64,000 bases of DNA from Nereocystis luetkeana. Taxonomy: Eukaryota; Sar; Phaeophyceae; Laminariales; Laminariaceae. The stretch is from assembly GCA_031213475.1 (NCBI GenBank), contig JARUPZ010000002.1, positions 6,209,049-6,273,048 on the forward strand, written 5' to 3'. The notes under the pieces are model-generated. The model had not been told where the DNA came from, did not search any database, and saw only the letters and a list, made by a program, of their open reading frames with translations. Shown here piece after piece: positions 1-64,000 of the stretch; the stretch's first letter is position 1; each line of letters opens with the position of its first letter. Made by a program: the position numbers and the translations under genes.

Positions 1-3000
1 GGCATCGGGGGGGGGGGGGGGGGCGGTTTTTGTTGGCTATATAATCTAAACTCGCCTGTGGACAGACAGATAGTACATGTACTAAATGGGACGACAATAT
101 AATAAGTGCTACCTGGTACTATTGACAGAGTAATGGCGGCTGGATCGTCTGCTGCTCACCTTTGAAAATGTCGCCGAGAGATTGGTAGTCCATCTCGGGG
201 GAGCAGTTGAAGACGTAGCAGCACTTTCCGAGAGCTGCCGCAAGGTCTTTCGTTGTTTCAGTTTTTCCTGTGCCCGCTGGACCTGCCGGAGCACATCCCA
301 TTTTCAGGTGAAGCGCCTGCGCAAAAGAGAACGATGCGCGGAGACGCACAGATTCTCACGCAGACTTCTCGTTTACCTCAGGAACTGCTACGTATTAATA
401 TTACGGGGGACCATAGTTGATAGGACCTATGGTATACATAAAAACCTATACATTTAACCTTTTTTTACTAACAATATTTGGTCCTATTAACTATGGTCCC
501 CCGTAATAGTAATAGTGGAGGATTTACAGTTTCTACCAGGTATTCAATATTGATAGTACGCACAGGTCCAACCTATTCGCCTGCAATTTGGCCTGTCTCT
601 CTATTGCGACTACTACTACTACTACTGCAGTACAACTGACTTTTACTACTTCTACCTACTACTATGAATAGAGAACACTGGGAGTATGATATCGGATTGG
701 TGGCTGCATGTGCAGGACTTGAACCTCTTGATGACGTCGTTCCTTGTCCGATGTCAGCAGTCATTCCGCACCGGTATCCGCACGTATACTGTCTATCTAT
801 CTGTGTTCGTATGGTGAACTGACACATGGCCTATCGACAGTGAATTGAAGACTGACGACGGCGAAGACTGATGACAGTGAATGAAGACTGACTACAGTGA
901 AGACTGACGACAGTGAATGAAGCTGACCTGAGTGGCCGTGACGTAAATCCTGTCGGTGAGGGGCGTGATCACGAGCCGAGGTCCGTTTCCGAGGAACTCG
1001 AAGCCGTACTCGAACGAAGCGTCTAGTATGTCGATCGTTGCCATGGGCAGTTTAGGGTCGGACGAGTGCCCCGAATCCCCCCTCAGCCGTTGCTTGAGTT
1101 GAGAGGCCCACTGAAAGTCCGCCTGCCACCAAAATAAAACAAAATGACAAAGGCTATTCTAGTACGGCGACTTTATGGAGAGCCGGCACGCTCTGTTTCA
1201 TACATCGCGTACCCTTCGGAGTAGACGGTTTGTTACAAGGTGCATTTTGATGCAAAAAGATAACACGTCACAACAAAAGACAACAGTGCACGTACGGGGA
1301 AGTCGTGGTGCACCACCACCTTGCATACTGGCAACCTCACCTTGTCGGTGACTCCCTCTCGAATCAACATCAGCACGATGTCGCGAGCGTGGGCATCCAT
1401 CGTGATGAGGCTCATGATACGTTGACGGTCGTCTCGCTTCAAGTCCGACCTCGTCAACTCGATCAGTTGGTTTAGTTGGTTCACCTATTGATAAACAGTT
1501 GGTATGCATGAGGGTGGAGGAAAAAAGTAGCGGGCGTTAAACCAAAACGTGCATCATGGGATCCAACAGGTAAAGCGTTCATTACATGGAAACTTTTTTT
1601 GCTTCCACGTTGTGGATTTATCAAGCTCAGTTTTTGGACGCTAATCGAACGCCACTAGACATGCAGCGCTTCGATACTATGGTAGATATAGGTGAAAACA
1701 GCACGTCGTGGCAAAATATGTTGACATCACCTCTACCGTAGCAAGACATGTGTCACCCCCTATGGTGTGGTGTGGTCTTCAGTAGGTAGTGGCGTTGTGG
1801 TACAATAGCAGTCAAAATTTCTCACTTGAAGATCGTGGTACCCGTTGAGAGCGCTCATGTCTCCTGAATCCACCCGCTCCAAAGTTGCTTCGACCTCCAG
1901 CACGTAGTTGATGCCAGCCACGAGAAGAGCCACCTAGAAAAAAAGAGTCGACGAGGAGAACCACTGCTTTATACCTGGTCTACCTTGTCAGATCCCTAGA
2001 CTCGCTACTGCTGTGCAACGTTCACTAACTAGCAGGCACTACTGTACGTGCACGCGAGCGGTTGTTATCGAAGCATCATGACAGTTTCACCCTTGTAAAG
2101 ATGACCCCACACTATTAACAGTCCAAACTAGTTTTCTCCATATAAACGTGCAGTGATTTGTGTAACATGTTGTTCGAGTAGATCATACAGATATACCCCA
2201 ACCCCAACCCTGGGGAGATAATTCTTAAGGACTCGTATCCTGTAACAACCCTCGACCTGTGCAGGATCGCTCTTTTTCGCCGAACCGGGCGGATCCGCGT
2301 CCATGAGCCATTCCACGCGAGCCTGGTTTGGGTAGCGACCGATTGATCGGTTGAGAGTGTTTCCCAAGGTTTTCCTTTGGCTATCCAGCACGTGTTGGAG
2401 GTAGATTTCCACCTGGCGCGAGATGGTTGCGACGTGGCGACATACGACAGTCTGGTGAGATGGTGTAACCGCCTACTATTAATAGGCGTTTAGGAGCACG
2501 ACGGGCATGTCGAATGTACGGTGATATCGACCGCTCGTTACAAGATACGACGAATATCTAACAGACCCCCGGCCGGCAACCTGTTTTGACTTGATAGCAC
2601 GAGCAGACGCACTACATAGCACCAGAATCTACTACGACTGTAGCTGCTGGTCTCTGTCTACATACCATAATTCGTGCCTACGAAGTGGTGATAAATTGTT
2701 TGTCTTAATGTTGTCAGATGTCCCACGACTACAGCAGTATCCACCAGTACCTACCTTGCCCTCCAAGAATACGGCGGGCTCGAAGTCAATGATTTCGTCT
2801 CCAACACCCGCCTCGAAGTGAACAGCCCGGGGGCGGTCGCTGACATTTCCGGGAACGGTCTCGAGTTTGAGGGTTTTAGTGGAGAGCATGATCTTATCGA
2901 TGTGCGGCATGATCTTGCCGGGTTGGTTCCCGTTCGAGAGAATGTCGAGGAGGTCCGCCTCGCTGGTGAAGTGAAACCTTGGAAATACGCGTTTCTTTCC

Positions 3001-9000: not shown

Positions 9001-12000
9001 AGCAAGAACGTGTTTCAAGTTAACACCATGCCAAAAAGTATTCCCGTTGGGGCTGGCTGAACCCGGGTTCTACGACCGCCGAGCTTTATATTGTACCAGG
9101 TACTTCAGATGTATGTTAATCCAAATTCTGTAAATTAACCAACGCACACAACTTGACGACTCATACAAATATCCTTCTGCGCGAATTCCTACGAGCGACA
9201 GCTATGAAATATTTTAAGCCCTGTGTTATTGATGATACTGTACACGCAGCCCTGCATTATCCTGCTACTGCTATGCACCGGTTTGCTGTTTGTAGCCTAG
9301 GGAAACAGATCTCGAAGAGTTCAAGTTTTAAGGAAGGCTTTTCTCACGGTTATTCTGGATCTCTGGGCCTCGTCCTCCGCCGCGGCGGCTTCGGCTTCAA
9401 AATCTTGGTCGTTCGCACCAGTTTCATCGTCCTCGGCGTACTCGTCTCCCATCACGAAATACACGTTAACCTCGAATTCATCGCCCCCGAACTCGCGGTC
9501 GTTGTTGCTTCCATCTCGCGCCTGTGATATCGGGTTGGTGGTGTGCGGTAAGCAAGGCACGTCGTGTTGCAGTGAGCTAGGACCGCGATTCGTCGCCATC
9601 TAGCGAGGCAGCCCAGACGGCAGACGACGCATAACACACACGCAAGGAGTGACACACGTAAGGAGTGGCGAATACAAGTCTGGCACGCCTAGAGAAAACA
9701 CGAGAGCAAAGCACACCCGGCGGGGTTCGCCAGACGCCAGCCGATGTTAAGAGATACAAAGCAAACAACACTAGGAAACCAGAAACTACGTGCACTATAT
9801 ATAGCATGCTGACCTGGATAACGAAGGTGGTTTCTCTCTGGGGTACGCCTTCCTCTAAGAGACCGGGCCCGTAGATAAAGCTGCAGTTGGCATCGGTAAC
9901 GGGGAAGAAAGTAAAATCTGCCTTCGTTGTCGTGAAGCTCTCGCCCGCAAGACAAACTCGGACGTCCACTGTGCCCGGAGGGATGCCGGTTTCCGTAAAG
10001 TTCGGAGTCAAGCAGGTGAGACTGGTCTGGCTGATGAACGTCCCTTGCACATCTACGAAGAGCTTGCGCTGAGAGAAGCGTATCTGAAAAGCAAGAGCAA
10101 GAATAGAACACGCGAACGTTCGTGCGCTTGTTGAAATGTGACGGCGGACGTCTACCAGCAAGATGCGCGAGCAAACACACAACTTTGCTGACGTTCACGT
10201 TCACGGAATGAATTCACACCATAGCTAACCGGCTGCTCGATCGTGATTGTTTGGACATTGCTGCGTGGGGTGAAGACACCTACCGCCTACCATGCTTGGC
10301 AGTCGTCAGTTCTTACTACCGTGCAATGTCTTACACGTAAACCGTGCTTTGCACCCTACCCTACCCTATGCTACCCTACCATGGTGGAATAGTTAACTCA
10401 CCACTACGTCTTCCGTGTTGATGAAGTCGATGCCGTGGATGTTTAGCAAAGTTTCGCCCGTGATGGGTCCGTGGTTAGGAGTCAAATCCATCACCGCGTA
10501 CGGTGGCCCGACAATGGAACCCACGTCGAGAGTGAAGCCGTCGCTGAACCAGCGGTTTGCCCACCCCCCGTAGAGAAAGAGCTTCCCTCCCTTCATGTTC
10601 ATGGTAAGGACGAAGGAAAATAGAGTCAACGCAAGCTATCAGTCGGCTTTAGACGCTCCGGCAGCATAATCGAACACACTGCAGAAATTACTGCCGCGTT
10701 GTATCTCTATCGCGCAAATAAATCCGAAGTTTCGAGGCGTGATCGTTTACACTATCAAATGAATAATTTTGGGTCAACGTCACACCTGATGGTAGTACTC
10801 GAGCTGCATGTCACCTCTGGGCAACGGTGGGTCTCCCTGGATAGCCGGTCGCAGCCAGCGTTCCGTACCCGTGTCGAATATGGAAACGTCGTTCATAAAC
10901 GTCCCTTGTCGATTGGTGTCCGTGATTTCACCTCCGATACCGCCGAAAACGAAGATCTTCCAGTGCGGTACCGCTTGCACTGCGTATGTTGCATGCAACC
11001 AGCGGGGCACGTCCATTAGCCCCTGCTCCACCTGCATGCCATACGTAGAACATAGCTTAGCACAGCACAGCCACAGCCACAGAAGGCAGTAACTATTGCC
11101 GATCTGGTGTGCAAAAGGTCTAACAAAACCAAGGATACTCGTGTGGTTGGGACGTTAATATTTCCGAGTGTTGTTTACGTTAACAATGGAGGAGAATATA
11201 GGAGGCCTGCTACAACTCATGCACCTGGCGCAGGCCGGGATTTCAATAAAAGTAGGAACTAAACGTTTCGTACGTACATAAGTTAGTTTTTTACTCGAGC
11301 ATGCTTCCCTCACCTCAGTCCACACGGGGGGGTCGACTTCGGTGTCCAGCACAAACATGTCCTTGAACTCTGCTGTGGTGGAACGACCACCGATGACGAA
11401 CATCGTGCCGTCCACTGCCACCGCACTGTGCTCCGATCGCCGCCCAGGTCCACGGCCTTTAGGCGACACCTGACGCCATCCAGTACAAGTCGCGTTACAT
11501 ATGAAGAACGAGCCGACACCGGGGGTGGGCAATAGGATAGAAACGCGAAGTGTTGCGGGTACCTCAATCTTCTACTAAAAATGTGTTGCAGTGGGATTTG
11601 GGACGCCGTGATGTCGTTCACTCGGAGTCCACATGGAATGCTATGAGGTCGTTCGCTTAGAGTCCACATTCACCCGCACCTTCGCCCAGTTCCAAGTTTC
11701 CAGGTTGAGGACGCACACGTCGTCCAAATCTTTGCGGCTGTAGAGCGCCCCGCCGTACCCACCGTACACCCAGAGGCGGGAGCCGATGCAACACGCGGAA
11801 TGCCCGCCTCTAGGCAAGAAAGCGGTCGCTCGCTGGCCGGAAGGTGGCGTCTTGTCTTCCCATTGCCGGGAAACGACATTGTACACCCAAACGTCATTCA
11901 GCCGCTCGCTAGACGACAGGAAGCCTCCAATGACCAGTATCCTGGAAACATGATGCAAACATTTAATCTACGAATGCTAACAAAAACGGCGAAGGTCGGT

Positions 12001-13358
12001 AACGTTTACGCTCATATAATACATGCTGATATAGCGTAAAATGCCCAGCAGACACACTTTGTCGAGCATACGACTGCTGTGCTATTAATAGTGCTGCTGT
12101 GATATAACTATGAATAGTAATCATGAACGGAACCACGTCTTCTGTGGCGCCAAAAGCACGCGCCCTCAAACGCTACCTATCGTATTGATGCTACTGTTTG
12201 GCTGACCATTCGACTGTTTGAAGGTTTAAGTGAGGGTGGAATTCGCGTTCGATTTTCTTTGGGAACGGCAATCACGACAGCCTATCGTCAAAACAGCATC
12301 AGTTTTACGGGGGACCATAATAAATAGGACCCACGATACACACAAAAACCTTTATAATTACCTATTTTTACTATCAATATTTGGTCCTATTCACTATGGT
12401 CCCCGAAATAGTAAGTACTGGTAGAGGTTGCATTGACTGCATTAGAGCTCGTTTCGGTACTTCACCTACAACACTGTACTCTGTAGAGTCATCTCTGCGT
12501 GAGCGCTCTCTGCGGTTTAGTGAGAGCCAGCGAAGATATTTGAAGATATGTTGCTTCTTGTTTTTTTGCTGAGACAACCCTGAACGGGCTCGCTGGAGGG
12601 CTTCTATCCTACTGGTACGTACCGTACGTATTCACAGGAATATCCACAAGCTTGCCACCGGAGAGGTGTCATTCGATCATGTGACTATTCAGATCATAGG
12701 AGCATGCGTACCTGTTCTCCTGTATGTAAGTGGCGGTGTGCCTCCACCGAGCACAAGGCCAAGCAGGCGTGTTCGCCGCCGTTGCGTCAACACAACCCGT
12801 GCTGCTTGGAGAGACTTGACGTGAGGCACCCACATCCACCTGGTTGCGTGAGCAGTGGGCGACGTAGAGGTTCTGTTGGCGGAGGCAAATGTCGACGGAA
12901 GCATTACCTCGACTACATACTTCGTCAAGCGCTCTACGATATCAACTACTGGCACAAGCGGTTAGCACCAGTATATCTATGTACGTTGGCATGCCATTCC
13001 TTGTGGTACGCCGTCATAAGCTCTTACGAGTATTTTCAATGGATACACACCCTTGCCAGCCTGCCAGGGACTACCACAAGACGTTGTGGACAAACGTATA
13101 CCGCACCAGGTATCTAGCACACCAGGTATGTGTTCTGCTCACTTTCTTCTCGCAGGTGTGCCACTCCGCGTCAGTGGAGCTCATTGTAAGCAGCCACATT
13201 TCGTCTGTCGGGCCAGCAGGCGATGCGCCCTCGAGAAGACCACCGAACATGTAGACATTGGGACCCATAGCAGTGACGGTGTGGCCTGACCTTCCTGCAG
13301 GCCTCTTGCGTTGACATTTTGCTTCCTTGATCGGAGCCCATTCCAGATTTGGGCTCAT
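1..13358 (-). CDS. Outer-arm (alpha-type) axonemal dynein heavy chain, N-terminal half, truncated by the window edge
   Basis: Motor subunit of the flagellar outer dynein arm; the window holds the tail, the linker and the start of AAA1. Exons with matching GT-AG sites and phases: 13143-13358, 11674-11941, 11314-11469, 10786-11031, 10402-10590, 9814-10083, 9348-9521, 8651-8899, 7887-8063, 7605-7706, 7155-7286, 6599-6712, 5924-6067, 5562-5771, 4903-5097, 4508-4642, 3717-3854, 3316-3413, 2755-3001, 2257-2412, 1826-1933, 1341-1484, 928-1122 and 160-316. The ATG at 13358 opens directly into a Kelch blade (RPAGRSGHT). Further blades follow ([33 protein letters not shown]), then an IPT/TIG domain ([16 protein letters not shown]), a filamin-type repeat ([11 protein letters not shown]), the linker ([32 protein letters not shown]) and the AAA1 Walker [11 protein letters not shown]. 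One connecting exon between 11941 and 13143 was not found: the phases on either side do not match. Kelch plus Ig-like tails are known from the Chlamydomonas alpha chain. Confidence 0.9.
160..316 (-). other. Dynein AAA1 P-loop exon
   Basis: This 157-base exon encodes the first ATPase site. It begins [20 protein letters not shown], continues through the conserved [17 protein letters not shown], and ends in phase 1 at a GTGAGC donor. The exon before it (928-1122) ends with the conserved [17 protein letters not shown] segment, which joins directly to ALHL as in other dyneins. The remaining AAA domains, stalk and C-terminus lie to the left of the window. Confidence 0.93.
401..506. mobile_element. 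MITE family copy 1 (TIR TTACGGGGGACCATAG, TA target)
   Basis: This 106-base element has near-perfect inverted ends of about 28 bases, TTACGGGGGACCATAGTT against its complement, and is flanked on both sides by TA. It sits in the dynein intron between exons 928-1122 and 160-316. Three relatives lie at 12305, 43805 and 59566. The TA duplication and small size suggest a Tc1/mariner-type non-autonomous element (inference). Confidence 0.85.
833..927. repeat. Degenerate minisatellite, GAAGACTGACGACAGTGAAT-like units
   Basis: About five imperfect units of roughly 18-24 bases run from 833 right up to the splice donor of the dynein exon that ends at 928. On the gene strand the array repeats GTCAGTCTTCA-like words that resemble the authentic donor GTCAGC. 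Confidence 0.7.
4281..4332. repeat. Nine-base tandem repeat (CGTGTACAT), about five units
   Basis: A short minisatellite with unit CGTGTACAT, the first copies being diverged. It lies in a dynein intron (3855-4507). It has no spacers and no array architecture beyond simple tandem repetition. Confidence 0.8.
8580..8650 (-). repeat. Tandem splice-donor-like repeats at the start of a dynein intron
   Basis: On the gene strand the authentic junction ACTAAG|GTCAGT (exon end 8651) is followed 32 bases later by the same ACTAAGGTCAGT, and 13 bases after that by CAAGGTCAGT. Using the third site would add exactly 15 open in-frame codons; using the second would shift the frame. Alternative use is not shown, only the repetition. 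Confidence 0.6.
12305..12408. mobile_element. MITE family copy 2
   Basis: A 104-base relative of the element at 401-506, with the same inverted ends and internal TATTTGGTCCTAT block. It is more diverged: the right end reads CCCCGAAA before the flanking TA. It lies in the first dynein intron region. Confidence 0.8.
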
Positions 13359-15458
13359 GGCTGAAGCCCTATACTACAGTTTACTTGCAACGACAGCACC
13401 TACCGTAGAGGAGAACTTTCGCGGGCATCTCCATCGCGCCTCCTCCATCTCTGTCGAGAGCGAGCCTCTATTACTGTCGAGAGTGAGTTCAGAATGCTCA
13501 GCAGTCTACTTTCGCTGTCGAGAGTGAGTCGAGATCGGGTTCTAATAATAATTGCGCCGCATCGGTTTCACGCATGTTACCCTTCGGCAACCTTGGGCAA
13601 GATCACGCCGCTACACCCTACACCGCACCTCTACCTCCACACCGCCACACACCCACTGCCCCCGTTCGTGAAGGGCAGCACTGAAATAACATATATCTAT
13701 ATATACGTCAGTATCATCAGTATTGCCGTCTACATGATACCAGGGGTGCATGTGTTTCTTGCATGTTGCTAAATCGAAAGATCGGAAAAGTATCAAGGAT
13801 CGATCTTATTTGATGACGAGTAGAAAGCTTGGCTCGCTGGTTTCTATTCGTCTGATTCTCTGGATCTCGATCGAGTATGTTTTCGGACTCGCTCGTTCAT
13901 GCGTAGTCCTGCGCAGTCACGCCAGACGTCCTCGCTCGTGGTTCTTGTTATATCAAACCCACCCACACTTGACGTACTTTAGTAACTGTTTGCCAGCTCG
14001 AGACACGAGCTGCGAGAAATCAAGACCTAAACTCCACGATTGCTGGGCTGAAAAATGGATAAAAACCCACACAACAAGAAGTCCAGAGTCAGCACAACAG
14101 TTTAGTTTTAGTCACAGAAAATGCGGTCCTCCAATGAAATTGGCGAAATAAAATGTACCAGGTATGATACGCTTGAAAAAAATCGGACAGACGGCCATGA
14201 GACAGCCTATCAGTTCGTGCGTTGGCATCACGCACGCATACATATATACGTTTGACCTATTAATAATATGCCGCACCGTGTCCGGCGGCCTCGCCTGGGT
14301 GCCATTCCTGCCCACGGAACATGCCACACACCCAATACTTGTCGTTTTAAAACCCGCGCATCCCCGAACAACGCGGTCGTTTTCTACTATAATGCATATT
14401 GAATGGCGCTATTAATGATATGTATGTACAAGTTACCCTCGGGTATATACCTGGTACATGACACTCTGTACGAGTGCGTGTTTGAAAGAAGGGCAGACAG
14501 ATCTGTCCTTGCCTCAACATTGACATTCGCATTGACATTCGGATGGTCGAGGCCGTGCTACAGCACCTCTCTGTATAAACAAGACACATGTTTCTCTTCC
14601 ACTCGACAGTAGACCCTCATGTCGTGGTGATTGGCATTCGGATGGTGGAGGTACGTTAACTACCTCTCTCTGCATAAATAACACACTGTTTCGTGTTCCA
14701 CTCGGCAGTGCGCCATCAATACTCACTCTTAATCTCCCAAGCATGTCCCTTACATACCATAAGGTGTACATCGGTCGATATTCACTTACTGCACACGGGG
14801 CCAGCAGCCAGCATCGTGGCCCTACAGCAGTACACTCGTACTGTGCACACAATCGCATCCCCCATGGCATATTGTACAGTACGCTTGTACCATACATCCC
14901 GTGTTTCGATACGGGGAGGGGGTAGTACCCAACGGGCAAGTCGCGCGGTCCCTTTTTTTTGTCAGTAACGTGCGACTATTTCCTCGTCATATACCACACG
15001 GGTCTGTTGAAAAAATGATGGAGCGCAGAACGGAGCAACACAACTACAATGTGGAAAGCACCCCGCCGAATTTACCCAATTCGGCCTAACATTAAAATCG
15101 AGTGGAGGGAGGGGGGCGAAGCGACTGGCCCCGAACGATGGAAGAACCACAGTAGGCATCTACCTACGGTTGCATTGTGTTCACTTTGCTGCTTGCAACA
15201 ATGTACGATACCTGGTACTGCTGTACCTCGAGACGGTCACTTGCCAAACGTTCAAAATATTCGAACTGAAGCAGAACAGTAGTGACACACGGCTTCACGC
15301 TTCAAGAACGAACTACCGACCAACTGTTGAAAACCACTTTGATCCTTTTAAGACTACGTTAGTAATCCTGAATAATAGGTTGTTCTTCCAACACGTCCTG
15401 CAAACGTATACGCGACAGTGCAATCACGGAGAGCCTAGGCTGTTGCTAGCTAGCATCG
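13359..15458. other. Interval between the dynein start and the 3' end of the C2/coiled-coil gene
   Basis: No exon with splice support was seen. The interval would include the dynein promoter. It holds three CTGTCGAGAG-type short repeats (13454-13524), a diverged tandem duplication (14526-14708) and one TACCAGGTA word at 14157. Confidence 0.5.
14526..14708. repeat. Diverged tandem duplication, about 100 bases
   Basis: Two adjacent copies share GCATTCGGATGGT-type starts, a CACCTCTCT/CTACCTCTCT middle and a TTCCACTCG(A/G)CAGT end. The copies begin near 14530 and 14631. They differ by many substitutions, so the duplication is not recent. Confidence 0.65.
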
Positions 15459-18400
15459 TCACAGATGCCCTGCTGGCATCGCCACGGCAGTACCTATCTC
15501 CATCTCCATCACGCGCATCTTCAAAGCTGCAATTTCGTCGCCGGCTGCCTTGGCGTTCGCAACCATCTGCGGGCAAAAGGTATGTGTGATGCGTACACCC
15601 ACAGAATAAGTGAAGGGAGGAGTAGCCACCAACCAGTACGCGAGGGCAATCATCAGAGAGTTTACCAGGAGCACAGAACTGAACTGTGCGCAAGGCAAGG
15701 CATTCGTCTTCACAGAGCGCAAGCCGCGCACCACAAAAGGGTGACCCCTACAGTATATACGTGCCCAGATTATCGTTGCGCTCCTACTAGAAACGGAAAC
15801 AAGATGAGCAACTGCAATCGTTTTGTACGACATTTTGGGAGTTACGCTACAGTACAAAAGTTCAGCAAACAATATACGAGCTTTTAGGTATGCTCTAACC
15901 TCTAGGTCTGTGAGGCCGCGGTACTTGACGGCCACCTGTTACTACCGTAGCTGGGGGGGGGGACAAGCCAGCTAACTGATTTGCTGTAGTATTTATTTAT
16001 ATCAAGCGCAAGTGGAGCCACAAACGCACCAAGTCGGATGCAACCACGCAGAACTCGCAAAAAAAGTCACGAAACGAACTGCAATACTCAGCCAAGTAAT
16101 ACTACTGTAATACCTAGTCGGTGATTTCTGCAGCAGTACTACTGTAGTAAGCCAGCTCACACCCCATACCTGCTCTTCAAGGATCCGAATCTTGGAGTCT
16201 TTCATCTCCAGCAACACGCTGACATCGTCTGTGACGTGTCCCGGTACATCGTTTCGCTTGGTGCTGCCTGCCATAGCGAGTCTCCATCGTAATTTTGCGT
16301 TCTCTTTCCTGAGCCTGTCGACCTATGGCATGAGCACAAGAGCAAACACGTTGACTAGCTCCGGGGCAATGGAGGTGTCGCGTGGTACACGAAATATATC
16401 GTTTCGCTCTACGAAACCTGACCAGGCTGGGGTTGCTCCCGCAAGCATGTTTCTACTTTAGACCAACGCCATACCTGGTATATAGTTACCACATACTGCC
16501 ACACCAGGGGCCTGGCCGACTAAAACATGTAGGTCCTGCCTCGTCCCTGCAGCCCTATATGCATATTACATCGATTTCGTGCGAACGTATGTATCACAAC
16601 GTAAGCCACAAGCATCTGGAGGGGTGCGGATGAAGCACATACAATTGACCGGACACTGGTTATCTTATTTTATCAGCCTCCTGGGCGGGTTTAATGTAGA
16701 TGGTTGGCGTGTTCGTACCTCGCGTCCTCTCCGTTGCTCATCTGAGGGGGGAAATTTAAGACCTCCTCCGGCGGCATCCTCGGCGCTGCCAGTTATTGTG
16801 CGCACCCTGTCATCAAGGCAAGGGGCCAATTGCACGTGATGCGCGGGGGGAGGAACGACAGCATTGAACTGTCTTTCTTTGTGGATACGTGTGATCTTAT
16901 GATACCTGCCTCTAAGAATCGCTCGGCCGCGTGCCGCGCGTCACAAATCCAACATAACGTACACACGGTACGAAGCGATATGCCTAACTATTCAATCGAG
17001 ATGGGAGAGCGAAGATTGGGCCAACAAAAAATTGACAAGAATATTACTAATAGCTGTGCTGTGTGCTATCCTAATAGTTGTCAGCCCCCTTTTTTATGAC
17101 GGCACGCTCATACAGCTCATACAGCTCATACAGTACGTGGTGTAGTAGTGTTTACTCGGTGTTTCCGGTGGATGGAGGTTGACGGCCTGACAGCAGCGCC
17201 TCCAGCTTGGCAATGACTTTCTCTTGCATCTTCACGGTAGATTTGTACGCGGCCACCTGACGATACAAGCAATCGTACAGCATATACTATCAATTGATTA
17301 TTGAATGGTGGGGGGATTTCCGTGCTGAGCGTGTGCTATTGGCGATAGAAGCATCGGGGGAAGCCTGTACCTTACATCGAGAACGGACAGCGAAATACCA
17401 TAAATCAATAGTATAGTCTTACATATAAATAAAATCACATAAAACACGTGCTGAGTATCAGTATGCAGTCGGATCCAGATGTTTTTTCCACATTAAGAGT
17501 GCTCGGGGGCTCAACACTTAGCGCCTTGTTTGCAGTTTTCCCCCACCTTTCCTGGAAGCGCTTGCATCTTGCGGATGTAGACAGCCTGCACGTGTTGAGT
17601 TTTCTTCATTTTCTGCATCTCAGACTGCACCAAGGGAAGGTACAAACGCAGCCAGCGAGCGAGTGAACAAACCGAATGAATCAATGCATTTACCCGATTG
17701 TGCCGTCGTCGGAATCCCTTCAATCGAGTATGCACTTCTTAACCTGGACTACGAGTATCACCATAAGATGACAGTAATATGCAGTCCTCAAAATGCATCA
17801 ATACACCAGGTATCATGGTACTGTAGTCCTCAATGCACCGCTGTGTTCATACACGACGGCCAACTCCCCTCATTCGTGATATATGCCTTGCCTGTAACGC
17901 GGCTGCTTGCCATCGCTCGTGCGCGGAGTCTTGCGCAACCCTGTGCAGCGTCTGCCGATACGACGACGAGAAGGCACGCGTACCGTACGAGTACCCCATT
18001 TTGATGGTGTGTGAGAGAGCAATGTAGCATTGTTCGAACACACCGCCAATCAATATTGCGGGGAACATGCAATGCGCGGTACTTCAGTATGTGATTGTGT
18101 GCTCGAGACTGAAGAATTCTTCGAAGATAAAACCTGGCTGCTAAAGCCTTGCTGAATGAACATTTGCGTAATTACAGTAGAGGAATACGACATGTCTGAA
18201 TATTTCATGGCCGAAGTTCAATCGACCGTCGACTTTTTCGTGGGGTTGAAGTTATTGTTTGGAACTCAGCAGCTTGTTTTTCGTGACATGAGCAACTGCC
18301 TGAAGCTCGTAACAGCGCCAGGTACAGTAGAGCAGTTCCCTTGTCTTTGTGCGAGCGCGAGGAGCTCGGGCAGACGCGAACGCGAACAAAACTATCGCTT

Positions 18401-21400
18401 GATCGTCGATCGCTTGATCGCTTGTGACAATTGCGAAGTTTGTGCTACACTCCATACCAATCCTACTGGTGTAGCGCAATTCGTGCATAGCGTCTTAACT
18501 AACGTATACGGCTTCCCTTGTACCAGGTATCTCACTTTATTCTCTTCTGAGAGCATTATGCACCGCTTGGCCAACGCTCGTGAGTGGCGACCGCCCCCAT
18601 CCCCGTCGAATCCACTGACCGAGGCATCTCCCTCCATAGCCTTCATCACTCGATTCACTTCCTGTGGAGTGGTTGAGACTTGAGATCATGTTTCAACACT
18701 GCATTCGACAGTCAACTTGACTTCGTAGCTCACATGTCCTATGATTCACGCCTGCTGTGCGGTATTTCCTCCCATTCCCGTCAATGCATGAGACGCCTGA
18801 TCAGCGATCGTGACATGACTATTCGTATGCCCATTAATATGGCTACTGCAAGGGATGGCTGATAGGCAACACACACCGCGGAGGTGCACGTATTGACACT
18901 GCAATACAGCGAAAGTCATCAACGGCTTAGTTGTCAGAGAGGATTGAAACATTGAACGCAGTGGCCATTTCTCCACCGTCGACTATGTGTAAGAATGTGC
19001 TATTTTTTTAATTAAGTCATCCCAAAGGAACGCGTGGCAAAATATCCGATTGTGTCGGGAAGAAGCGTTGCTGTGAACGACCTCGACCTTTCCTACCTTA
19101 GGCTGGGGGGACCATGTTTTACGGCCTTACCTTACCACAGAGAGAGCCGTTTTCGACTACTGTACTACACTACAGTACCAGGTACATGACAATCAGTGGC
19201 CTTTTTTTCGCAAAAAACAGCTCTGACTTCGCCCAAGATTACCCCTAGTGCAGCCCCTCTTCCCCCTGTTACTGTAGGTGGTTCCATGACGGAGTAGCAA
19301 ATCGTGTATACAGTACTCCGCTATATGTGGCGCAAGCGGGGGGGAAATGAGCGCTTTTGCCTCACCATCTCAGCTCCGGCTGTATTCATGTGGAGGGCCT
19401 TGAGCTGTGAGTCTAAGCGACGGCGTTCTTGATCGATGACTTCGATGTGCTTCCTCAGCTTCACGATCTCCGCGCCGCATTTCCTTATTGCATGAGACCG
19501 CTTGTCCACTTGCTGCAATTCCAATGCGTGAAAAACGACGAGGCAGGCGCCAGGCGAGCATATTTTGGCAGAGGGTGCGAGCCATTAAACTCGTACCTGA
19601 TATGACATGGTTATCCAGCGTACAGCGGGGTGATTAGCTGGCACAGTACAAGTGATACCGACTGTGAGCGATACAAATTGAGCTATCTAGCTGCATAATC
19701 TAAGAAAATATTCCATGCGACTCGGGTCTCACCTCCGAAAGATGGACCACGATGGATTGCTTTTGATCTGCCTCAGCACGAACGGCTTGGAGTTGGCCAT
19801 GAAGAGACCCGACTTCGTTTTCCAGGACCTCAAGTCTGTTTGTTAGGCGGCCCAGGCCATGGGATTGTTAGGTTCAAATCCGGCCTTGCAGAGGAAACCT
19901 ACAGTACCTTGTGCAACAGCTACTAGTGCTACAGCAATTTTTTTTTTTTTTTTTTTTTTTTTCTTCCCATTCATTATCTTCGCACATCTTCTCTCTCTCC
20001 TTCCAACTCGTAACTCAGATCCGGGGTCACATAGCAGGCTCTTCTCCCCCCTTCCCGCTACGGTACGTGCCTTCATTTTTATCGCGAGAAGATTTCAGCC
20101 TTTTCTTCCCTCGTCGACTCGCATCGAATTGTGCCTACCCACGCTGCAAGGCGCTCTCAACAATTGAATCCCTTTTTTTTTTTATTTTTGCAAATAAAGT
20201 CAAAGTCCGACCCTCCTGGGGCTCGAACCCAGGACTCAAACAAGTAGAATTCGAGGTTAACCACTTGAACCACCGGGGCGACCGGCAATAGACTACAGTA
20301 GACTTAAAGTGTACCTGGTATACTAATGAAATAATTTCAACGCTATCCATAGGCACCGTGCGCGGTAGAGGAGAGCTAAAGTACCACGTACCTGGTATGA
20401 AACATCAAGCACACTTGGCACGGCTTGGATAGCACAGAATGATAGAAGGCTCACTTTTCTTTGTCTTTGGCGTTCGTCATTGACTCTTGTGCGCCCTCGC
20501 TCGTGCTGATTTGCGACTCCGATCCTTTCTTGGAGGCTATTGGTAATTGTTTTTCCTTCTCCTACAGTGTATACACATTGAGTACGAAATGCGTTTTAGT
20601 GCCGCAGTAGTATCGTGTATGCGCAATCGACTTTGACATGGGGTCGCACGGCATTGAAAGGAGGAACGTTTTTATGGCTATGAATAGACATCGAGCGCGG
20701 CTTCCGTGAGTCGGTTGGAGTGGCGTTCCTTTCCACCGTCTCGTCAAAAGAATAAAAACAAACCACTGCTTGACGAGAATAAACATCGAAGTCGGAAGAC
20801 TAGCCACATGTTGAACAAAACCAGCGAAGAGCATGCTGCCTACGACGAAAACGTAGAACACATACATACGGTTGTTTTATATAAACTTCGATTTTCGAGA
20901 CCGTTCCACCTTCTTCCCCGTCTGCATAGGGTGAGTAGACCGATAGACCGAATATATAGACTGAATATACCGAAACGACTAAATATATTGGATATACTGA
21001 ATAGACCGAATAAAACGTCATACCTGGTACACTACAGTGACTTCTTGGGCGCTGCAGTATTAATAGTTGCTGCTATAACTTTTGACGTTACTGCATGTCA
21101 ACACCCATTAGCACACGCTAAGACGAAAATAAACATGGCACGATGCCTTCGATAAATAGTTTTTTTGATCAAGTCCTCGTTACATTGGCATGACCACCAT
21201 GATAACTGGTTGGCGCGCACAAACAGGCAACAACGTTTAGCCTACCTCGTCTTCCTCAGATGAACTGCTTTCTCGAGCAGACAGTGGAGGAGGGCCCGTA
21301 GCCTGTTTAGATACGAACGACGTGCCAAAAAATGTTAAGAAATTGGTGTACTGGTATGCCATATACTCGCATGATTGGATTATAAATAAAGGTATGCCTG

Positions 21401-39891: not shown

Positions 39892-40027
39892 TGTCGGTGA
39901 TAGCAATAGCAATAATAGCAGCAGCAGCAGCTCATTTCCTCGAAAAACTCCATCACCCGACATAATGTCGGGAGTACCGATGATGATGCTGCTGCCTGAT
40001 ATAGGTAGAGGTGCCGCCTTGAGCCAT

Positions 40028-40056
40028 ATCAAATATTCAAATATTCAAATATTCAA
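40028..40056. repeat. Short tandem repeat ATATTCAA
   Basis: About three and a half units, TCAAATATTC repeated, just to the right of the foldback element. Confidence 0.7.
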
Positions 40057-40747: not shown

Positions 40748-41975
40748 AACATACTATTATTAATGCGTACTCCGCCACTACTAAGAACACCAGGGAAACA
40801 AAAAAACTATTATTAATAATAGTAATAACAGACAAAAAACAAAACGAAATGAAGACGAAGCGAGAAGCAAAAAGCAAAAAAATAGAATATATAAAAAAAA
40901 AGCAAAGCGGAAGATACAAACAGAGACCCAAAGAGGTACAAAAATTTGAAAGCAGGAAACATGAAAGAAGGGACAAAAAAGGGACAAAAACGGGCGGGGG
41001 GGAAAGATGATACGAAGGACGGGAACTACTGGTGCCTACAGACACGCAAAGTTGCCCGGGTGGCACCACGCTAGCTACTTGGGTCCCACAAAGAAGGGAG
41101 CGCATCATGACGATGTGATGTGGCCATACCCAGGCTTCAGTCTGTTGGGTAGACCGCCCCCCCCCCCTTCCCCACTCCCCCCCCCCCCCCAATTCCCCCT
41201 CTCCCCCCTCGTCCCCCTTTCGCCCCCTCCCTCTTCCCTGCCATTCTGCGCACGTGCGTTGGCGTCAACGGTTGTAGTCAGTCGTGGTTGCAGCCATCCT
41301 GTGCCGTTCTGCCGATCGATGCCTCCTTCTCATCCCTACGCCATTTCCGCATGAAAACCTCCGCCCCTTCCTCGACCCGTCGAAACCATCTGCCGGCTTT
41401 CTGTGCTGCTTCGCGCCACCTTTCGAGCTTGATGCCAAACTCCTTGAGGCCCTCCTCAAGGTACCTCATCCAGTCCCACTCCTGTCCTCCGGAGTAGTAG
41501 CCCTTACCCCCGACTATCTCCCCAAACATCACCCTCTTCGGCAGACGCTCCTCTCCAATGCGTGTCACAAAGCCCGCGAACAATTATAGCCTACGTCTGC
41601 GTACCGTCGTCTCAACGCTCTCAGAGTTTGTCCTGAAAAGCGCGCTAGCACAGGATAGAAGGTGGTCTTCGCGCTTTCGTTTTCGCCAGCCGATGCATCG
41701 GAGGAGAGAGCATCTTGTGGCGGACCTCCCGTAGCCTACCGTAATCAGTCTTCTTGCTCGGGCTCCAAGTTACGCAACCGTAGAGCAACGTTTCGATTAT
41801 CTCGGCTCTCTGCATCCGCACCTTCAGGCGTAGGCGCACACCCGGGCGGTCATATATTTCCATCTTACCGATTATACCGTCCGAAGCACGCCCACATGCC
41901 CTCTGGGGTCGACGCGTTACCTCGACACTTCTGCTCGTCCAATCTGCGCTGATAACCCCGCCCAAAATACACAAA
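40748..41975 (-). mobile_element. LINE (non-LTR retrotransposon) 3' part, copy B
   Basis: On the minus strand, 41975-41645 encodes the end of a reverse transcriptase thumb region (RMQRAEIIETLLYGCVTWSP, then RLREVRHKML). 41583-41278 encodes its usual C-terminal tail (FAGFVTRIGEERLPKRVMFG, GGQEWDWMRYLEEGLKEFG, AAQKAGRWFRRVEEGAE). The two parts are in different frames, so the copy is decayed. The A-rich 3' untranslated region continues to about 40748, interrupted by a C-run at 41157-41235. The 5' part, including the catalytic reverse transcriptase core and endonuclease, is missing. Confidence 0.8.
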
Positions 41976-41998
41976 CAAACTCGGTCTATTATTTATTT

Positions 41999-42330
41999 TT
42001 TTCTCACATTAACTCACAATACAATGCAGTCCGTGGTCGCAGGACAGGCTCCAATAACTCTGGAGTGGAAGAAATACCTCGGTAGTAAAACAGAGGCAAA
42101 CACAAAAAACAAGCATACATACGCACTCCACCGCTCACTGCGGACACCAGGGAATCAAAAAGGAGACTATTAATAGCAGACAAAAACCAAAAAAAGAAGA
42201 TGAAGCGAATCGAAAAAAAAAAAAAAAAACAGAAGCAGATAGCAAAACGCACAAAAGGCAAAACGGGCCATACTAACTGAGACACAAAGAGTGTACAAAC
42301 GGGAATGAAAGAAAGAAAAAAATACGACAT
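41999..42330 (-). mobile_element. LINE 3' end, copy C
   Basis: Closely matches 35744-36040 (shared CAATGCAGTCCGTGGTCGCA and GGAGACTATTAATAGCAGAC). It lies immediately upstream of copy B in the same orientation, with an A/T-rich tail at 41984-41999. It is truncated at about 42330 and has no coding sequence. Confidence 0.75.
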
Positions 42331-42854: not shown

Positions 42855-42898
42855 GATCTTTCTTTCAGTATCGAGTCGATACTACTGAAGAAAGATCG
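42855..42898. repeat. Small inverted repeat, about 18-base arms
   Basis: CGATCTTTCTTTCAGTATCG pairs with TACTGAAGAAAGATCG around a short loop. A CTAT tetranucleotide repeat follows at 42908-42936. Confidence 0.65.
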
Positions 42899-43804
42899 CA
42901 GACACCTATCTATCCATCTATCTATCTATCTATCTCGTGTTCCTGGTCGATACAATTAACGGGCGAAAAACTACCAGGCAGGTATTATTACTACTCGTAC
43001 CATTAATACTAACCGTGCAGCCGTAGTACAGCACAGCAGCTAGTTGTATGTCTCTGCCCGCTGTAGACTACAAGTAAGTGGTATCATATTCTATGCTCCT
43101 ACGGCTAGCTCCTAAGAGTATGTTCTTCAGAGGTGGCCGGAACCCCCCCCCCTCCACAATGTGGGCGTAAACAAATCCATATTATGACATTGAGAAATAC
43201 AACAAACTCCACGAGCGGCACTTAATCTTCTCAATTCGGTACGCCTAATAATTGGTGTGCTAAATGAAAATGTCTCAAGTTTTTTTTCGCGCCCACATTA
43301 TGCAAGAAGGGAGGTCCCTGCCACCAGTGTTGGGTCCTCACATGTTTGGAATGGCTTTTCCGTCGCTCGGTTGAGTCAATTGCTATATACCAGGTATGCT
43401 ATATGGGACAACGGTATATGTATACGCATGTTTGTCAAATTTTCGTACTTTTGCCAACTTTTTTCTTCGTACCGAGCATTTTTCGGTATAATCAAGTATA
43501 ATAATAGGGGTAGCTTGAGGGGGGGGGCGTACAAGTCATGCCTGGTGCGAGCGAACGGCCCTAGCCGGACCCGAAATAATGACTTGAAGACAGGACAGGA
43601 AAGGAGTTAGTTGCCGTTCAAGATTCTTGAGAACGCCCGTATAATCGTACCACTGGGGGGATACTGGATCGGCGGCACCATACTGTACCCACCACGGTGG
43701 CACAGCAGGTGTCGCAAACACAAACGCCCACAGGCAGGCCGGGTATTATACAGGGTTATCGTTGCGCATTGGTCAGTAGAATGATATACCTGGTATAAAT
43801 CGTA

Positions 43805-43920
43805 TTACGGGGGAACATAGTAATCAGGACCAAATATTCTTACAGAGTAGTATAAGTACGTACCGGAATATATATGTTTATGTCTACATGATGGGTCCTG
43901 ATTACTATGGTCCCTCGTAA
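43805..43920. mobile_element. MITE family copy 3
   Basis: A 116-base relative of the 401-506 element with TA on both sides. The termini (TTACGGGGGAACATAG and its complement) are conserved, but the interior is unrelated to copies 1 and 4, which suggests a subfamily sharing ends only. Confidence 0.75.
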
Positions 43921-44813
43921 TACTGTAGTATAGTATCGTCCTCATCATAGAGAGAGTCCCGAGCGAGATTCGGGCAACGAAAAACAGCAAGCAGTGCCTC
44001 TACTACTACTACTACTGTATAGCTATACTTGTCGTGGTATGAAGGTAGCTCCAGGCTACGTATCAGGTACCAGGTATAGTATAAGATGGCACGCAAGTTA
44101 TAAAAACATTGAGGCTTGATTAGAGCATCCAATAGGCATCTAACTAAAAGACACAAGACCAGCAACAAAGCCGTAACGCACACCCTAAAGTTTCTACGCA
44201 CTCTACGCTGCATGACCAACAGACACAAAGTAACAACCAACAGAAACGTAACCCACACCTTGTTTTTTTACTCACTTACCCCGCGCTGCATAGCTGCAAG
44301 GCACGAATAAAGCAACAGAAACGCACAGCTTCATTCTTACACCCACTCCACGCGTCTTATTTAGTGACTCGAAGTATTACTCACCCAGGCCATGGAATAG
44401 CTCCCCGCCTGATGAGTTTTAGCCATCTGCATGATGAGCTGAACGCTACGAGCACTTCCAGGTATTTCATAGTGCAGTCCATGGCAGTATTGCTTGCAGA
44501 ATACAGTTTGTAGCGCTCGGCTGAGAACGAAAAAACGGCAAGGGTGAACCAATCACACTACTACGATATAAACCACGACCGACCGGCTACACACGGATCA
44601 CTGTAACCATTCGTGGATCCCACCGGTGATCTCCAAACAAAAGTATCTACACATTACTTACTAACGTAGCCCAAGCCTCCTCATGTGTAAAACGGTGACT
44701 ACCCAACTTTTTTGCCTTGCTAACTCGGCGCACGCCTCCCCTCCTAAAATGTGTGGCCTCTCCCTCGAAGCAAACGTTCGAATCCCACCAACATAAATTA
44801 TTGCACAAGGCTT

Positions 44814-58988
<14,175 letters not shown>

Positions 58989-59565
58989 GGTGAGTCCAAG
59001 GTATCCCAGCAGTCCTCCAGAACGCGGCTCGGTGCTAGGAAAGAGTTCAGTCGCGGTCAATCAGGTTGAACAACCAGGGGTCAAGATCCCGGTCACCCGA
59101 ATGCGGCGTGATTACAACACGATTTAAATTTGATCGTATCCTTGCAAATCACAGGTAAAAATCATAAAATCACACCCTCTGATATTTAATATTATTTATA
59201 TCCTGATTGAATAGGTAAAGTTGAGGTAAAAATCAAAAATATCAAACAAGAATATACATATCGTTCAGTTTACAAAAAAAAAATGAGAATACTTTACATC
59301 GTACAAGTACGACGTAGGATGAGGAGTACAGGTACTACTGGTGAAAAAGTGCGAGTACCCAATCTACAACAGAGACAGACGTGACATTGTATCTCGTTAT
59401 ATTATACCTGGTATGCGCATAGCCAAGATCCCAAGATCATCGGGCAATGCAAGAAGAAGGTTTGTCGATGTTGCTGTACGAGTAGCTATGAACTGCTTAA
59501 AACGATTTATCGTGCCAGACACCAGACAATCGTTGCGTACCTCGAAGGAAACTTGGAAATGTCTA

Positions 59566-59670
59566 TTACGGGGGACCATAGTTAACAGGACCTATGGTAC
59601 TCATAAAAACCTATATGTTTAACCATTTTTACTAACAATATTTGGTCCTGTTAACTATGGCCCCCCGTAA
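59566..59670. mobile_element. MITE family copy 4
   Basis: A 105-base element, closest to copy 1 (shared TTACGGGGGACCATAGTTAA type end and CATAAAAACCTATA interior), with TA on both sides. The similarity of copies 1 and 4 suggests this subfamily moved relatively recently. Confidence 0.85.
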
Positions 59671-60049
59671 TAGGATTTTAGGGTGTTTTTTTTGTAGCGT
59701 TGTACTGGTGTAATGTATGTATCGTTCGTAGGGTGTGGTGGGGTCCTTCTCCTTCTTCTACTGTCAAACAGAGGGCGTACTCAATCCATTCATGCTTGAT
59801 ACGTACCAGGTAGGGCTGACGCAAGAACCCTACAAAAATACCAAGTACTGGTAGTGAAGACGATCTCAACTTTACTACTACTACTTGTAGTATACCAGGT
59901 ATAGAGAAAGAGCGGCGGCTATAAAAATGTGGAGCTACAACAGCAGAGAGCCAGATGCGAAATATGACAATTTCGAACAGATGAGAAATTGTATCACGCT
60001 CGTAAAATACAAATAAACGCGGGCAGTGGCAGTGCTTTTACCTATAGCA

Positions 60050-61598: not shown

Positions 61599-64000
61599 TC
61601 ATCGCTGGAACTCTCCATCGAACCCGGTGAACCCCGTGAGCTGGAACATCGGAAAAAAAGGCTTGCTGTTGAGCTGCGAGCACCAATTCCATGCCGATGT
61701 CAACCGGCCGTCAATGCAACTGCACGGAAGCGTGGAAGGCGACAACGGCGGGGGGCGGGGGCGGGCGAAGCAAGAAAATAGTCAATTCCCGCACTGGGTA
61801 TATATCTGGTATTTATTTATTTTTTGCTCATCCCCATTTATTATCTTCGCACATCTTCTTCTCTCTCTCCTTCCAACTCGTAACTCAGATCCGGGGTCAC
61901 ATAGCAGACTCTTCTACCCCCTTCCCGCTACGGTACGTGCCTTCATTTTCATCGCGAGAAGATTTCAGCCTTTTCTTCCCTCGTCGACTCGCATCGAATT
62001 GTGCCTACCCACGCTGCAAGGCGCTCTCAACAATTGAATCCTTTTTATTTTTATTTTTGCAAATAAAGTCAAATCTCCGACCCACCTGGGGCTCGAACCC
62101 AGGACCCAAACACAAGTAGAATTCGAGGTTAACCACTTGAACCACCGGGGCGACCGACACCGGTATACAGTCAGTAGATTCATATTTTGACAAGTCGCAG
62201 ATGAAAAAATTCGGGGTCGAACGGGTGGATCTTCATGCTTGCGTTGAGAAAAAAGTATGCCTCATGTTAAAGCGGCGAGATGATCGGATACTACAATCAC
62301 GGGATATGTCGAAGCTACCCGCACTAGCTATATGCGCGGAGGGCCCAGAGCATGCGCGAGGGTCAAGCGGTCGGGCGCTCACCGCTGCACTTTAGTGGGA
62401 CGGGTACGGCAATCAGCCGTTACCTAAGGTTTCCGACATTCTGCAGCCAAATACACGCGGGATTAGTATACTGGGGGTCGGACATAACCCAAGTGATTCA
62501 AAACACGGGCCCGAGGGCAAAAGACGACCCAATGTCACGTATCACCGTTGTGCTTGTATATCGCACGCATCATGCGCATACTCCAGTACATCGTATCGTG
62601 CTGTCACGCTCGAATACTCGGTTTGCACTTGCGTAGACCTCGGAATTGTCTCATTCCGAGAAAAGGAAATTCTCCGTCCCGAGTACCGTACAGGGTACCT
62701 GGTAAACAAGAGCCCTCATGACAAGAGAGTGCCGACTAGGCCTGCAGTACAACGAACCCGGAGTGGACAAAAGGTGAGTGATAAATCATCCAACCTTAAG
62801 TCAGTCTTCAACATTAATGCAGTCGGAGTCATGCATGGGGTATCGTCGACACAACATAGCAGGTAATGGTCGCAGCGAGGAACATTTTCTCCACTGGGTC
62901 TACACACACATTGACCAACACGCCATACTTTCAGGCGAAAAGGACATCCCTCAAAAAGTCGAAGGCCGACACAACATACTCAAACGAAACGTTAAACAAA
63001 CCGCCACTACACATTCAGAAAGCGGGCAAGATGCTCATCTGAGGGAACATTTTCGGGCTTGACACGGACATAACCGGCGGACAAGACTGACACTGGTGTC
63101 GACTCCTAAGCGTGGTACACATCTGACCGAAAACTGCGACCACAAGCACGTCAGTAGCAATAGATGTGTTTAGCCTGTGGAGACAGTCTTAGTTAACTAA
63201 TGGTATAATAAATAATATATACCTGCCGGCGTCGAAGAAGTTGTCGGCGCCGCTACCGTCGAAAGCCGACCGGAAGAAATCGAAAAGGATGTCCTTCTTC
63301 AAAACCTCCAGACCGCCGTAGCCGGTATCGATGAGATGCTTAATCTGTTCATCCTTGTCATACAGCACGACAAGCTGCTCCAAGCACGAAACGATCGGGC
63401 CCAAAATCCGCGACACCTGCGGCGGCGGCGGGAAAAAAAAACATGCGCAAACATGGTGGGCGGAGTCGGACCAACGTCTGACCATGCACCAGCTGCGTAC
63501 CACCATCACAACCACGCGATATACGGCCCTGCTCGAGGCCTCCCTGAAATAAGGCCGACCCCACGCCGCGTACCGCTACGTAAATCGTCGGCTTTCACAG
63601 AAAACGGGGCTCGTAGCTGGCAATAACAAAATAACCTAACAGCGCAGCGCGGCGCTTGTATCGAAATGTCAGCAATATTTCGTGCGATGGTCTCCGAAAA
63701 CAACGCGCCTCTCTGCAAATTTTCCCAATGGTTGTCGTTGGGGACTTGTTGGCGATAGTGGCGAATGAGCCTGCAACACGCACCTGAGTGTACTTGTCGA
63801 TGAAGATGAGGGCGTTGGGCACGTTGTGGTCGCCAAGGTGAATGACGCTGCTCCCCACCCAGCTCTTCACGCCACGTTGCGCGTGGTAGAGAATCTCCTG
63901 CAGGTGCGCGGTTGGAAAGGCGTGCCCGGGTCAATTAGCGATACGGATAATCGCATGCAGGCACGATGTATCCGCACGCTTCTTAAAACTACCCACGTCT
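61599..64000 (-). CDS. DUF2009 (UPF0652-like) protein, C-terminal part, 5' end beyond the window
   Basis: Conserved eukaryotic protein of unknown biochemical role. Exons: 63784-63897, 63223-63416 and 61599-61719 (TGA at 61599), with matching phases 0 and 2. The first gives [20 protein letters not shown], then [18 protein letters not shown]. The second gives [20 protein letters not shown] and [20 protein letters not shown]. The third gives [20 protein letters not shown], then [20 protein letters not shown] and the stop. The [23 protein letters not shown] and [13 protein letters not shown] blocks and the near-terminal LTGF.GFDG are hallmarks of the family as I recall it. The last intron (61720-63222) is about 1.5 kb and holds a SINE and the second copy of the 0.4 kb repeat. 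Upstream exons lie beyond 63900 or off the window. Confidence 0.85.
61813..62156 (-). mobile_element. tRNA-derived SINE, copy 2
   Basis: Same head (A-box-like TGGTTCAAGTGG, B box GGTTCGAGCC) and body as 19938-20284, with few differences. The terminal poly(A) is shorter and interrupted (plus strand TTTATTTATTTTTT). It is in the last intron of the DUF2009 gene, in the same orientation as the gene. Confidence 0.8.
62278..62690 (+). repeat. Interspersed repeat, copy 2 (about 0.4 kb)
   Basis: Partner of 54485-54905, in the last intron of the DUF2009 gene, just right of SINE copy 2. Both copies have the same plus-strand orientation, antisense to the genes that contain them. Confidence 0.65.

Follow-up and report, generated by a model that had tools for sequence, protein, structure and literature searches.

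In the brown alga Nereocystis luetkeana the nine-base word TACC(A/T)GGTA is present or absent as a block of seven bases at TA dinucleotides, and it is probably (at roughly 70%) the excision footprint of TA-targeting transposons of the Tc1/mariner type. The word was followed from one stretch of 64,000 nucleotides (contig JARUPZ010000002.1 of assembly GCA_031213475.1, positions 6,209,049 to 6,273,048; the window in what follows) to the whole assembly of 465,085,209 bp in 1,987 contigs. It is built as TA + CC(A/T)GG + TA, and the window holds 42 exact copies of it: 23 with A at the centre (TACCAGGTA) and 19 with T (TACCTGGTA; Table 1). An initial annotation of the window had counted 41 copies, one too few, at positions that hold to within 2 bases, and had put their enrichment at about 80-fold over some 0.5 expected. 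That estimate was sound: Markov models of order 1, 2 and 3 predict 0.38, 0.69 and 0.79 copies, respectively, which places the enrichment at ~53- to 110-fold. The doubled copy that it placed near 30912 is also real, and there are further doubles.

The excess extends to the entire genome, far above background as the same annotation had proposed to check by counting: the 465 Mb contain 182,395 sites, and the reversed word has 1,744, a 105-fold difference. Twenty-five 10-kb genome pieces chosen blind to the word (250 kb) contain 109 copies. When the 256 odd palindromes of the form hhhh[AT]rc(hhhh) are ranked in the window, TACC(A/T)GGTA leads with 42 sites and the next two have 5 each. The spacing of the half-words is strict (TACC-N1-GGTA is found 43 times, and none of the other gaps between 0 and 25 bases more than 5 times), as is the centre base, which in the 250-kb sample is A or T at 109 sites and C or G at 6. 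Spacing between copies in the window is exponential (p 0.94). Nothing was found to favour chance, base composition or an artefact of assembly as the source of the word, in a genome that is rich in microsatellites and in TAC/GTA words. Four sets of 60 simulated windows, at Markov orders 3 to 5, averaged 0.7 to 2.1 copies and never exceeded 6; with the Markov expectation and the 105-fold genome excess, they refute chance and base composition as the cause, and the probability left to this whole class of explanation, artefact included, is negligible.

Two simple ways of carrying the word can also be set aside. A larger repeat unit, which the initial annotation had raised as a possible host, is ruled out: just one of the 42 window copies is spanned by a within-window paralogous alignment. 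Back-to-back splice sites (CAG|GTA) are ruled out by the symmetric context of the word and by the occurrence of both orientations side by side. Nor does the word look like a miniature inverted-repeat transposable element (MITE) in its own right: there are five bases between its TAs, and no conserved sequence past a loose flank preference.

The comings and goings of the word were followed between paralogous stretches of an own-genome sample made up of the window and the pieces L010-L042 (338 kb; an earlier subset of 288 kb is specified where it was used). Thirty-four filled sites have an alignable paralogue. At 14 of them one or more paralogues lack the word and are shorter by a net 7 nt; at 18 the lengths are equal, and 2 are ambiguous. 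The 18 equal-length rows amount to nine sites, each entered once per copy of a duplication (the three duplications are L012/L013, L019/L036 and a tandem pair in L028). On a stricter count, an exact bare TA stands in the paralogue at 9 sites. The cleanest empty and filled pairs are L041:1408 with L013, where TGTCGTATCTAGTACCTGGTATGATGACATGGC in L041 faces a bare TA in the corresponding L013 stretch, L028:7405 with window position 396, and L028:9879 with L029; further clean cases are L015:1744, set against several copies of a MITE, and L028:449, where the insert is a double of 14 nt. Among 18 seven-base insertions found between paralogues in 288 kb, 11 have the form TA-x-TA, and all 11 of these are TACC(A/T)GGTA (L028:498 and L028:499 being probably one site). 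Because many paralogues have the bare TA, the direction is taken as insertion rather than loss. These seven-base comings and goings at TA support both the miniature insertion unit and the excised-element footprint that the initial annotation had listed among its readings; the footprint fits best, by analogy with known transposons and in view of a set of sister words described below.

The word also has a landing preference. In the window, both sides of a copy tend to carry R next to the TA, R six bases out and T seven bases out; the target context is thus a palindrome centred on TA, T-R-N4-R-TA-Y-N4-Y-A, extending to 23 bp. A flank matrix derived from the window scores 218 flanks from outside it far above TA background (p 2e-40, both flanks of each word counted apart). 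Doubles that share a TA, TACC(A/T)GGTACC(A/T)GGTA, number 15,917 genome-wide and 2 in the reversed control; within the window, 4 exact flanks are seen where flank preference alone predicts 0.016. TACC(A/T)GG itself fits the half-site and may therefore explain why doubles are common. Slippage of a single unit cannot alone make them, since the two centres differ in 19 of the 59 plus-strand doubles listed and agree in 40. Triple words, formed by two overlapping doubles, occur among the matches listed (G000 C1:2158057-2158079 and C1:2471230-2471252), and TACCAGGTATACCAGGTA, two words with equal centres abutting as TA|TA, occurs 99 times genome-wide and not at all in the reversed control.

Copies of the word decay. 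The 250-kb sample contains 99 one-mismatch copies (57 transitions, 42 transversions), and 49 (18 and 31) for the reversed word, the sole control used for decay: an excess of ~50 per 109 exact copies, of which ~39 are transitions. In the window, transitions account for 8 of the 12 one-mismatch A/T-centred copies with a flank score above 0 and for 4 of the 12 with a score below 0. An impression from raw one-mismatch counts that decayed copies are nearly absent did not survive the flank scores and the control word. The transition-rich excess fits neutral decay and speaks against selection on the word. This bears directly on the protein-binding site suggested by the initial annotation, that is, a palindromic site for a dimeric regulatory or architectural protein, held by selection. 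The strict spacing and extended 23-bp palindromic context would suit such a site, as would the small number of copies in a region of dynein and kelch genes (see below) and the negative correlation of left and right flank scores in the window (r -0.33), which a binding threshold would also give. However, paralogues gain or lack the word by a whole unit of seven bases, its decayed copies are transition-rich, its spacing is exponential, its core carries ~17 bits where 10.6 would suffice to mark 42 sites in 64 kb, and two bound dimers would overlap in the doubles. The one-mismatch excess and the seven-base presence and absence in paralogues are not the signature of constraint, and a binding site is very improbable. 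More doubtful again is the proposal that the word is the preferred target, rather than the product, of an element that makes a 5- or 9-bp duplication: the palindromic context does resemble an integration-target consensus, but empty paralogues hold TA, not the word, at the site, and no word-flanked element was seen.

TACC(A/T)GGTA does not stand alone. TACAGTA, TACCAGTA, TACGAGTA, TATTAATA and TACAGCAGTA are also above second-order expectation in the window; in the 250-kb sample TACGAGTA occurs 48 times versus 2 for its reverse and TATTAATA 55 times versus 2, while the ratio for TACAGTA is only 90 to 38. They too are missing in a paralogue at some of their alignable sites (CAG at 4 of 24, CCAG at 2 of 12, CGAG at 1 of 9, TTAA at 5 of 12 and CAGCAG at 1 of 7, with a common ancestral site for the rows L010 and L011 in the case of CAG, and for L015 and two window copies in the case of TTAA); for the CAAG word, neither of 2 alignable sites has an empty paralogue. 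Besides the word, no fewer than five kinds of insert of 3-6 bases between TAs are thus present in some paralogues and absent from others. Different words in the window share a TA little more often than background predicts, if at all (7 cases, with 5.0 expected); when TATTAATA words are counted too, 9 of 84 sides are shared (p 0.01-0.03).

A 110-bp MITE has served as a landing pad for several of these units. Its terminal inverted repeat is TTACGGGGGACC; it has four window copies, with clear TA duplications in three, and 34 full or partial copies in the 338-kb sample, 24 of them long enough for alignment. The word stands at no fewer than three different TAs among these copies, once as a 14-base double; the TA that it fills in L028:7405 holds TTAA in another MITE copy, and CCAG, CAG and CTGCTG are found at further TAs. 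One MITE is nested inside another in L040 (5325-5540). With its TA duplication and its termini TTAC...GTAA, this MITE is itself a candidate parent for the TTAA sister word: two-base overhangs TT and AA would leave TATTAATA.

The mechanism that we favour for the word, excision of a Tc1/mariner-type element, can be put together from what is known of such elements, in which one strand is described as cut two to three bases in from the ends and the target TA as duplicated (PMC2170065), and one of which, ZB, is reported to prefer a palindromic AT-rich target (PMC7913693). An element would insert at the TA of the loose palindrome T-R-N4-R-TA-Y-N4-Y-A, duplicating the TA, and would later leave by staggered cuts a few bases within its ends. 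The single-stranded end bases left on both flanks would then form C:G and G:C pairs on either side of a single A:A or T:T mismatch, the repair of which would give A or T at the centre. A five-base CCAGG overhang pairing in register would yield TACC(A/T)GGTA directly; with a four-base CCAG overhang, pairing in register would yield TACCAGTA, and a shift of one base TACC(A/T)GGTA. TACAGTA, TACGAGTA, TATTAATA and TACAGCAGTA would be the footprints of sister families, and the scars would thereafter decay neutrally. Three properties of such a footprint are found in the word: a second TA added at a TA, a TA-centred palindromic preference, and a self-complementary core with A or T at its centre. As for numbers, 182,395 copies accumulated over tens of millions of generations would be within reach of a few hundred elements, at an assumed rate of ~1e-4 jumps per copy per generation.

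Several facts weigh against excision of a transposon. Tc1/mariner footprints are given as 2-4 bases (PMC7913693) and the core here has five, so that the word appears to work like such a footprint without being filed as a member of the class; a length of 2-4 would result only if a four-base overhang paired shifted by one. The product is highly uniform in spacing, beyond what end joining often produces; in some cell types, though, Sleeping Beauty footprints are described as mostly canonical (PMC3770610). The rows of the paralogue comparison are not events: a single MITE position accounts for 3 of the 14 absent cases (L015:1744, L028:496 and L039:8053), and L017:305 is homologous to L041:114. Several absent cases have a gap that the alignment sets away from the TA, or further differences in the paralogue close by. 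The window case at 39690, where the word stands in only one of two inverted-repeat arms (39391-39586 and 39700-39895, 92% identical), differs by 9 bases, not 7, and may instead reflect microhomology-driven loss from the other arm. To these must be added the negative flank correlation and the excess of equal centres in doubles (40 of 59).

The search for a parent element weighs on the same side. In 347 kb, CC(A/T)G termini next to TA, with up to 3 mismatches allowed, could nowhere be extended as terminal repeats; 124 pairs of termini were found, 103 of them being two complete words, and no recurrent terminus-like sequence was found after TACC(A/T)GG. Among the matches listed in a linked-alignment search for long TA-flanked inserts there is no candidate. 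Profile searches of the genome with PF13358 and PF01359 gave no match (PF01359 gave none in any control genome either). PF03184 (DDE_1) gave 28, and two of these loci, viewed for ~2 kb on each side, have no TA-flanked terminal repeats, although a longer element would be missed. Zero parents in 347 kb limits an evenly spread element of moderate size to at most ~4,000 copies (Poisson 95% bound), and the scars therefore outnumber such a parent by more than 40 to 1.

That disproportion, together with the lack of any parent in 347 kb and the near-uniform length and centre of the product, is what speaks for the most serious competitor: that the seven bases are the inserted unit itself, CC(A/T)GGTA being added at TA breaks by an enzyme or by repair, with no longer element ever present. 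We nevertheless consider it unlikely, since five or more other kinds of short insert (3-6 bases, between TAs) act alike, as several transposon families would, and since an A/T-limited centre at a TA-centred palindromic target is what Tc1/mariner chemistry gives. No enzyme with such an activity is known to us. A particular form of the proposal, in which a TA-specific enzyme, possibly a domesticated transposase, repeatedly adds a five-base palindrome plus TA, so that more than 180,000 insertions are habitual or even programmed, is rather improbable; such habitual or programmed micro-insertion has, to our knowledge, no known counterpart.

Excision footprints of known elements provide the closest comparisons. 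Like the typical Sleeping Beauty footprint, TAC(A/T)GTA (PMC3432063), the word is bounded by TA at either end, has a terminal C...G pair and an A or T centre, and uses TA as its target, and the sister word TACAGTA/TACTGTA matches the Sleeping Beauty footprint letter for letter; it differs in that the Sleeping Beauty core has three bases rather than five and its element is known from experiment; in the alga no element has been seen, and there are ~182,000 copies of the word. Plant Stowaway MITEs and mariner-like elements likewise make a TA-type duplication, and their footprints keep short element ends (PMC4561436); in contrast to Stowaway, no short element with such termini was found beside the scars. 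The resemblance to Minos concerns a sister word, and also the overhang: TACGAGTA, enriched here and missing in a paralogue as noted above, reads, with its complement TACTCGTA, as what we take to be the Minos excision footprint, and a four-base overhang would explain CCAG and, shifted by one, CC(A/T)GG. No Minos-like element was found. In cyanobacteria, HIP1 is a short palindromic word repeated very often across the genome; it differs from the word described here, which comes and goes as a seven-base unit. Ectocarpus, apparently of the same algal class, has 17 mariner-Tc1 families with almost 12,000 copies, most of them non-autonomous, and many intronic elements (PMC12477816). The main text of that paper contains neither 'footprint' nor 'excision', and the sections consulted mention none of these scars; among the papers listed in literature searches, mostly from non-subscription sources, titles and abstract openings describe no genome-wide scar of this kind.

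The positions of the word were compared with the genes of the window. Pfam-anchored exons (both strands at 20-40 kb, minus strand only at 1-20 and 54-64 kb) encode dynein heavy-chain, kelch, DUF2009 and DUF543 domains. None of the 42 copies falls in these exons, a small sample of 2,256 bp in which 1.5 would be expected, so that chance alone could well give none (P(0) 0.22). The first 13.4 kb, with the dynein and kelch genes, hold 3 of the 42 (p 0.023, with a boundary set after looking). The exon avoidance proposed in the initial annotation is likely on general grounds, as an insertion of seven bases would shift the reading frame.

Other features were noted in passing (Table 1). Two 92% identical copies of a dispersed element carry a stretch resembling a tRNA B box, GGCTCGAACCC, and the element is possibly a short interspersed nuclear element; tRNA and Rfam searches gave no match. 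An A-rich dispersed repeat has related stretches in L015, L028, L032 and L033, and its TATTAATA word is missing in the L033 copy. A long AAGG microsatellite is open in several frames and generates false open reading frames. In L021 (1-10000) a tandem repeat of ~87 bases fills most of the 10-kb piece, which has no TACC(A/T)GGTA word. The EsV-1-7 domain, which proliferated in brown algae and is otherwise found mostly in giant viruses (PMC12477816), is represented in the genome by 150 scored matches out of 1,714 candidates; it is absent from 14 control genomes, a weak control, as those named are prokaryotes. The viral contigs compared gave no relevant match.

Table 1. Copies of TACC(A/T)GGTA and other features of the window.
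Feature	Position	Strand	Remark
TACCTGGTA	110..118	-	
TACCAGGTA	534..542	+	
TACCAGGTA	9094..9102	+	
TACCAGGTA	14156..14164	+	
TACCTGGTA	14448..14456	-	
TACCTGGTA	15209..15225	-	TA shared with TACTGCTGTA word
TACCTGGTA	16472..16480	-	
TACCAGGTA	18521..18529	+	
TACAGTA and TACCAGGTA	19171..19184	+	shared TA; TACCAGGTA at 19176
TACCTGGTA	20312..20320	-	
Double	20382..20397	-	one-mismatch word (20382) and TACCTGGTA (20389)
TACCTGGTA	21021..21029	-	
Double TACCAGGTACCTGGTA	22799..22814	.	unequal centre bases
TACCAGGTA	24367..24375	+	
TACAGTA and TACCAGGTA	29613..29626	+	shared TA; TACCAGGTA at 29618
Double TACCAGGTACCAGGTA	30913..30928	+	
TACCTGGTA	32372..32380	-	
TACCAGGTA	32567..32575	+	
TACCTGGTA then TACCTGG+CT	32581..32596	-	two-mismatch double
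TACCTGGTA	32650..32664	-	TA shared with TATTAATA word
TACCAGGTA	33132..33140	+	
TACCTGGTA	35711..35719	-	
Double	38454..38469	+	one-mismatch word (38454) and TACCAGGTA (38461)
TACCTGGTA	39690..39698	-	in one inverted-repeat arm, without counterpart in the other (9-nt gap)
TACCTGGTA	40385..40393	-	
TACCAGGTA	40494..40502	+	
TACCAGGTA	40671..40679	+	
TACCAGGTA	43388..43396	+	
TACCTGGTA	43787..43795	-	
Double	44061..44076	+	one-mismatch word (44061) and TACCAGGTA (44068)
TACCAGGTA	45401..45409	+	
TACCAGGTA	46859..46867	+	
TACCTGGTA	48369..48383	-	TA shared with TATTAATA word
TACCAGGTA	49322..49330	+	
TACCTGGTA	52035..52043	-	
TACCAGGTA	53666..53674	+	
TACCTGGTA	59405..59413	-	
TACCAGGTA	59804..59812	+	
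TACCAGGTA	59893..59901	+	
TACCTGGTA	62696..62704	-	
MITE, terminal inverted repeat TTACGGGGGACCATAGTT	399..508		terminal inverted repeat also given as TTACGGGGGACC; TA duplication; left TA shared with TATTAATA word; empty at the TA filled in L028:7405
MITE, terminal inverted repeat TTACGGGGGACCATAGTT	12302..12412		TA duplication unclear
MITE, terminal inverted repeat TTACGGGGGACCATAGTT	43803..43922		
MITE, terminal inverted repeat TTACGGGGGACCATAGTT	59564..59672		empty at the TAs where L015:1744 has the word and where L028 (449/456) has the 14-nt double
Near-perfect hairpin	39391..39895		505 bp; two ~230-base arms, 40-base loop
Dispersed element (possible short interspersed nuclear element)	19987..20299		92% identical to next
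Dispersed element (possible short interspersed nuclear element)	61857..62171		
A-rich dispersed repeat	35727..36262		partial copy
A-rich dispersed repeat	40763..41173		partial copy
A-rich dispersed repeat	41985..42299		partial copy
AAGG microsatellite	52683..53105		

If the words are footprints, one family of cut-and-paste elements and its sister families would have supplied a brown alga with small insertions in large number, and such insertions would sit mostly at sites that an element has left. The scars would record past insertions, which could serve to date past activity and which repeat annotation misses when it counts surviving copies; the number of jumps per surviving copy would become testable. 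If they are not footprints, an unknown process of micro-insertion would be at work in this genome on a large scale.

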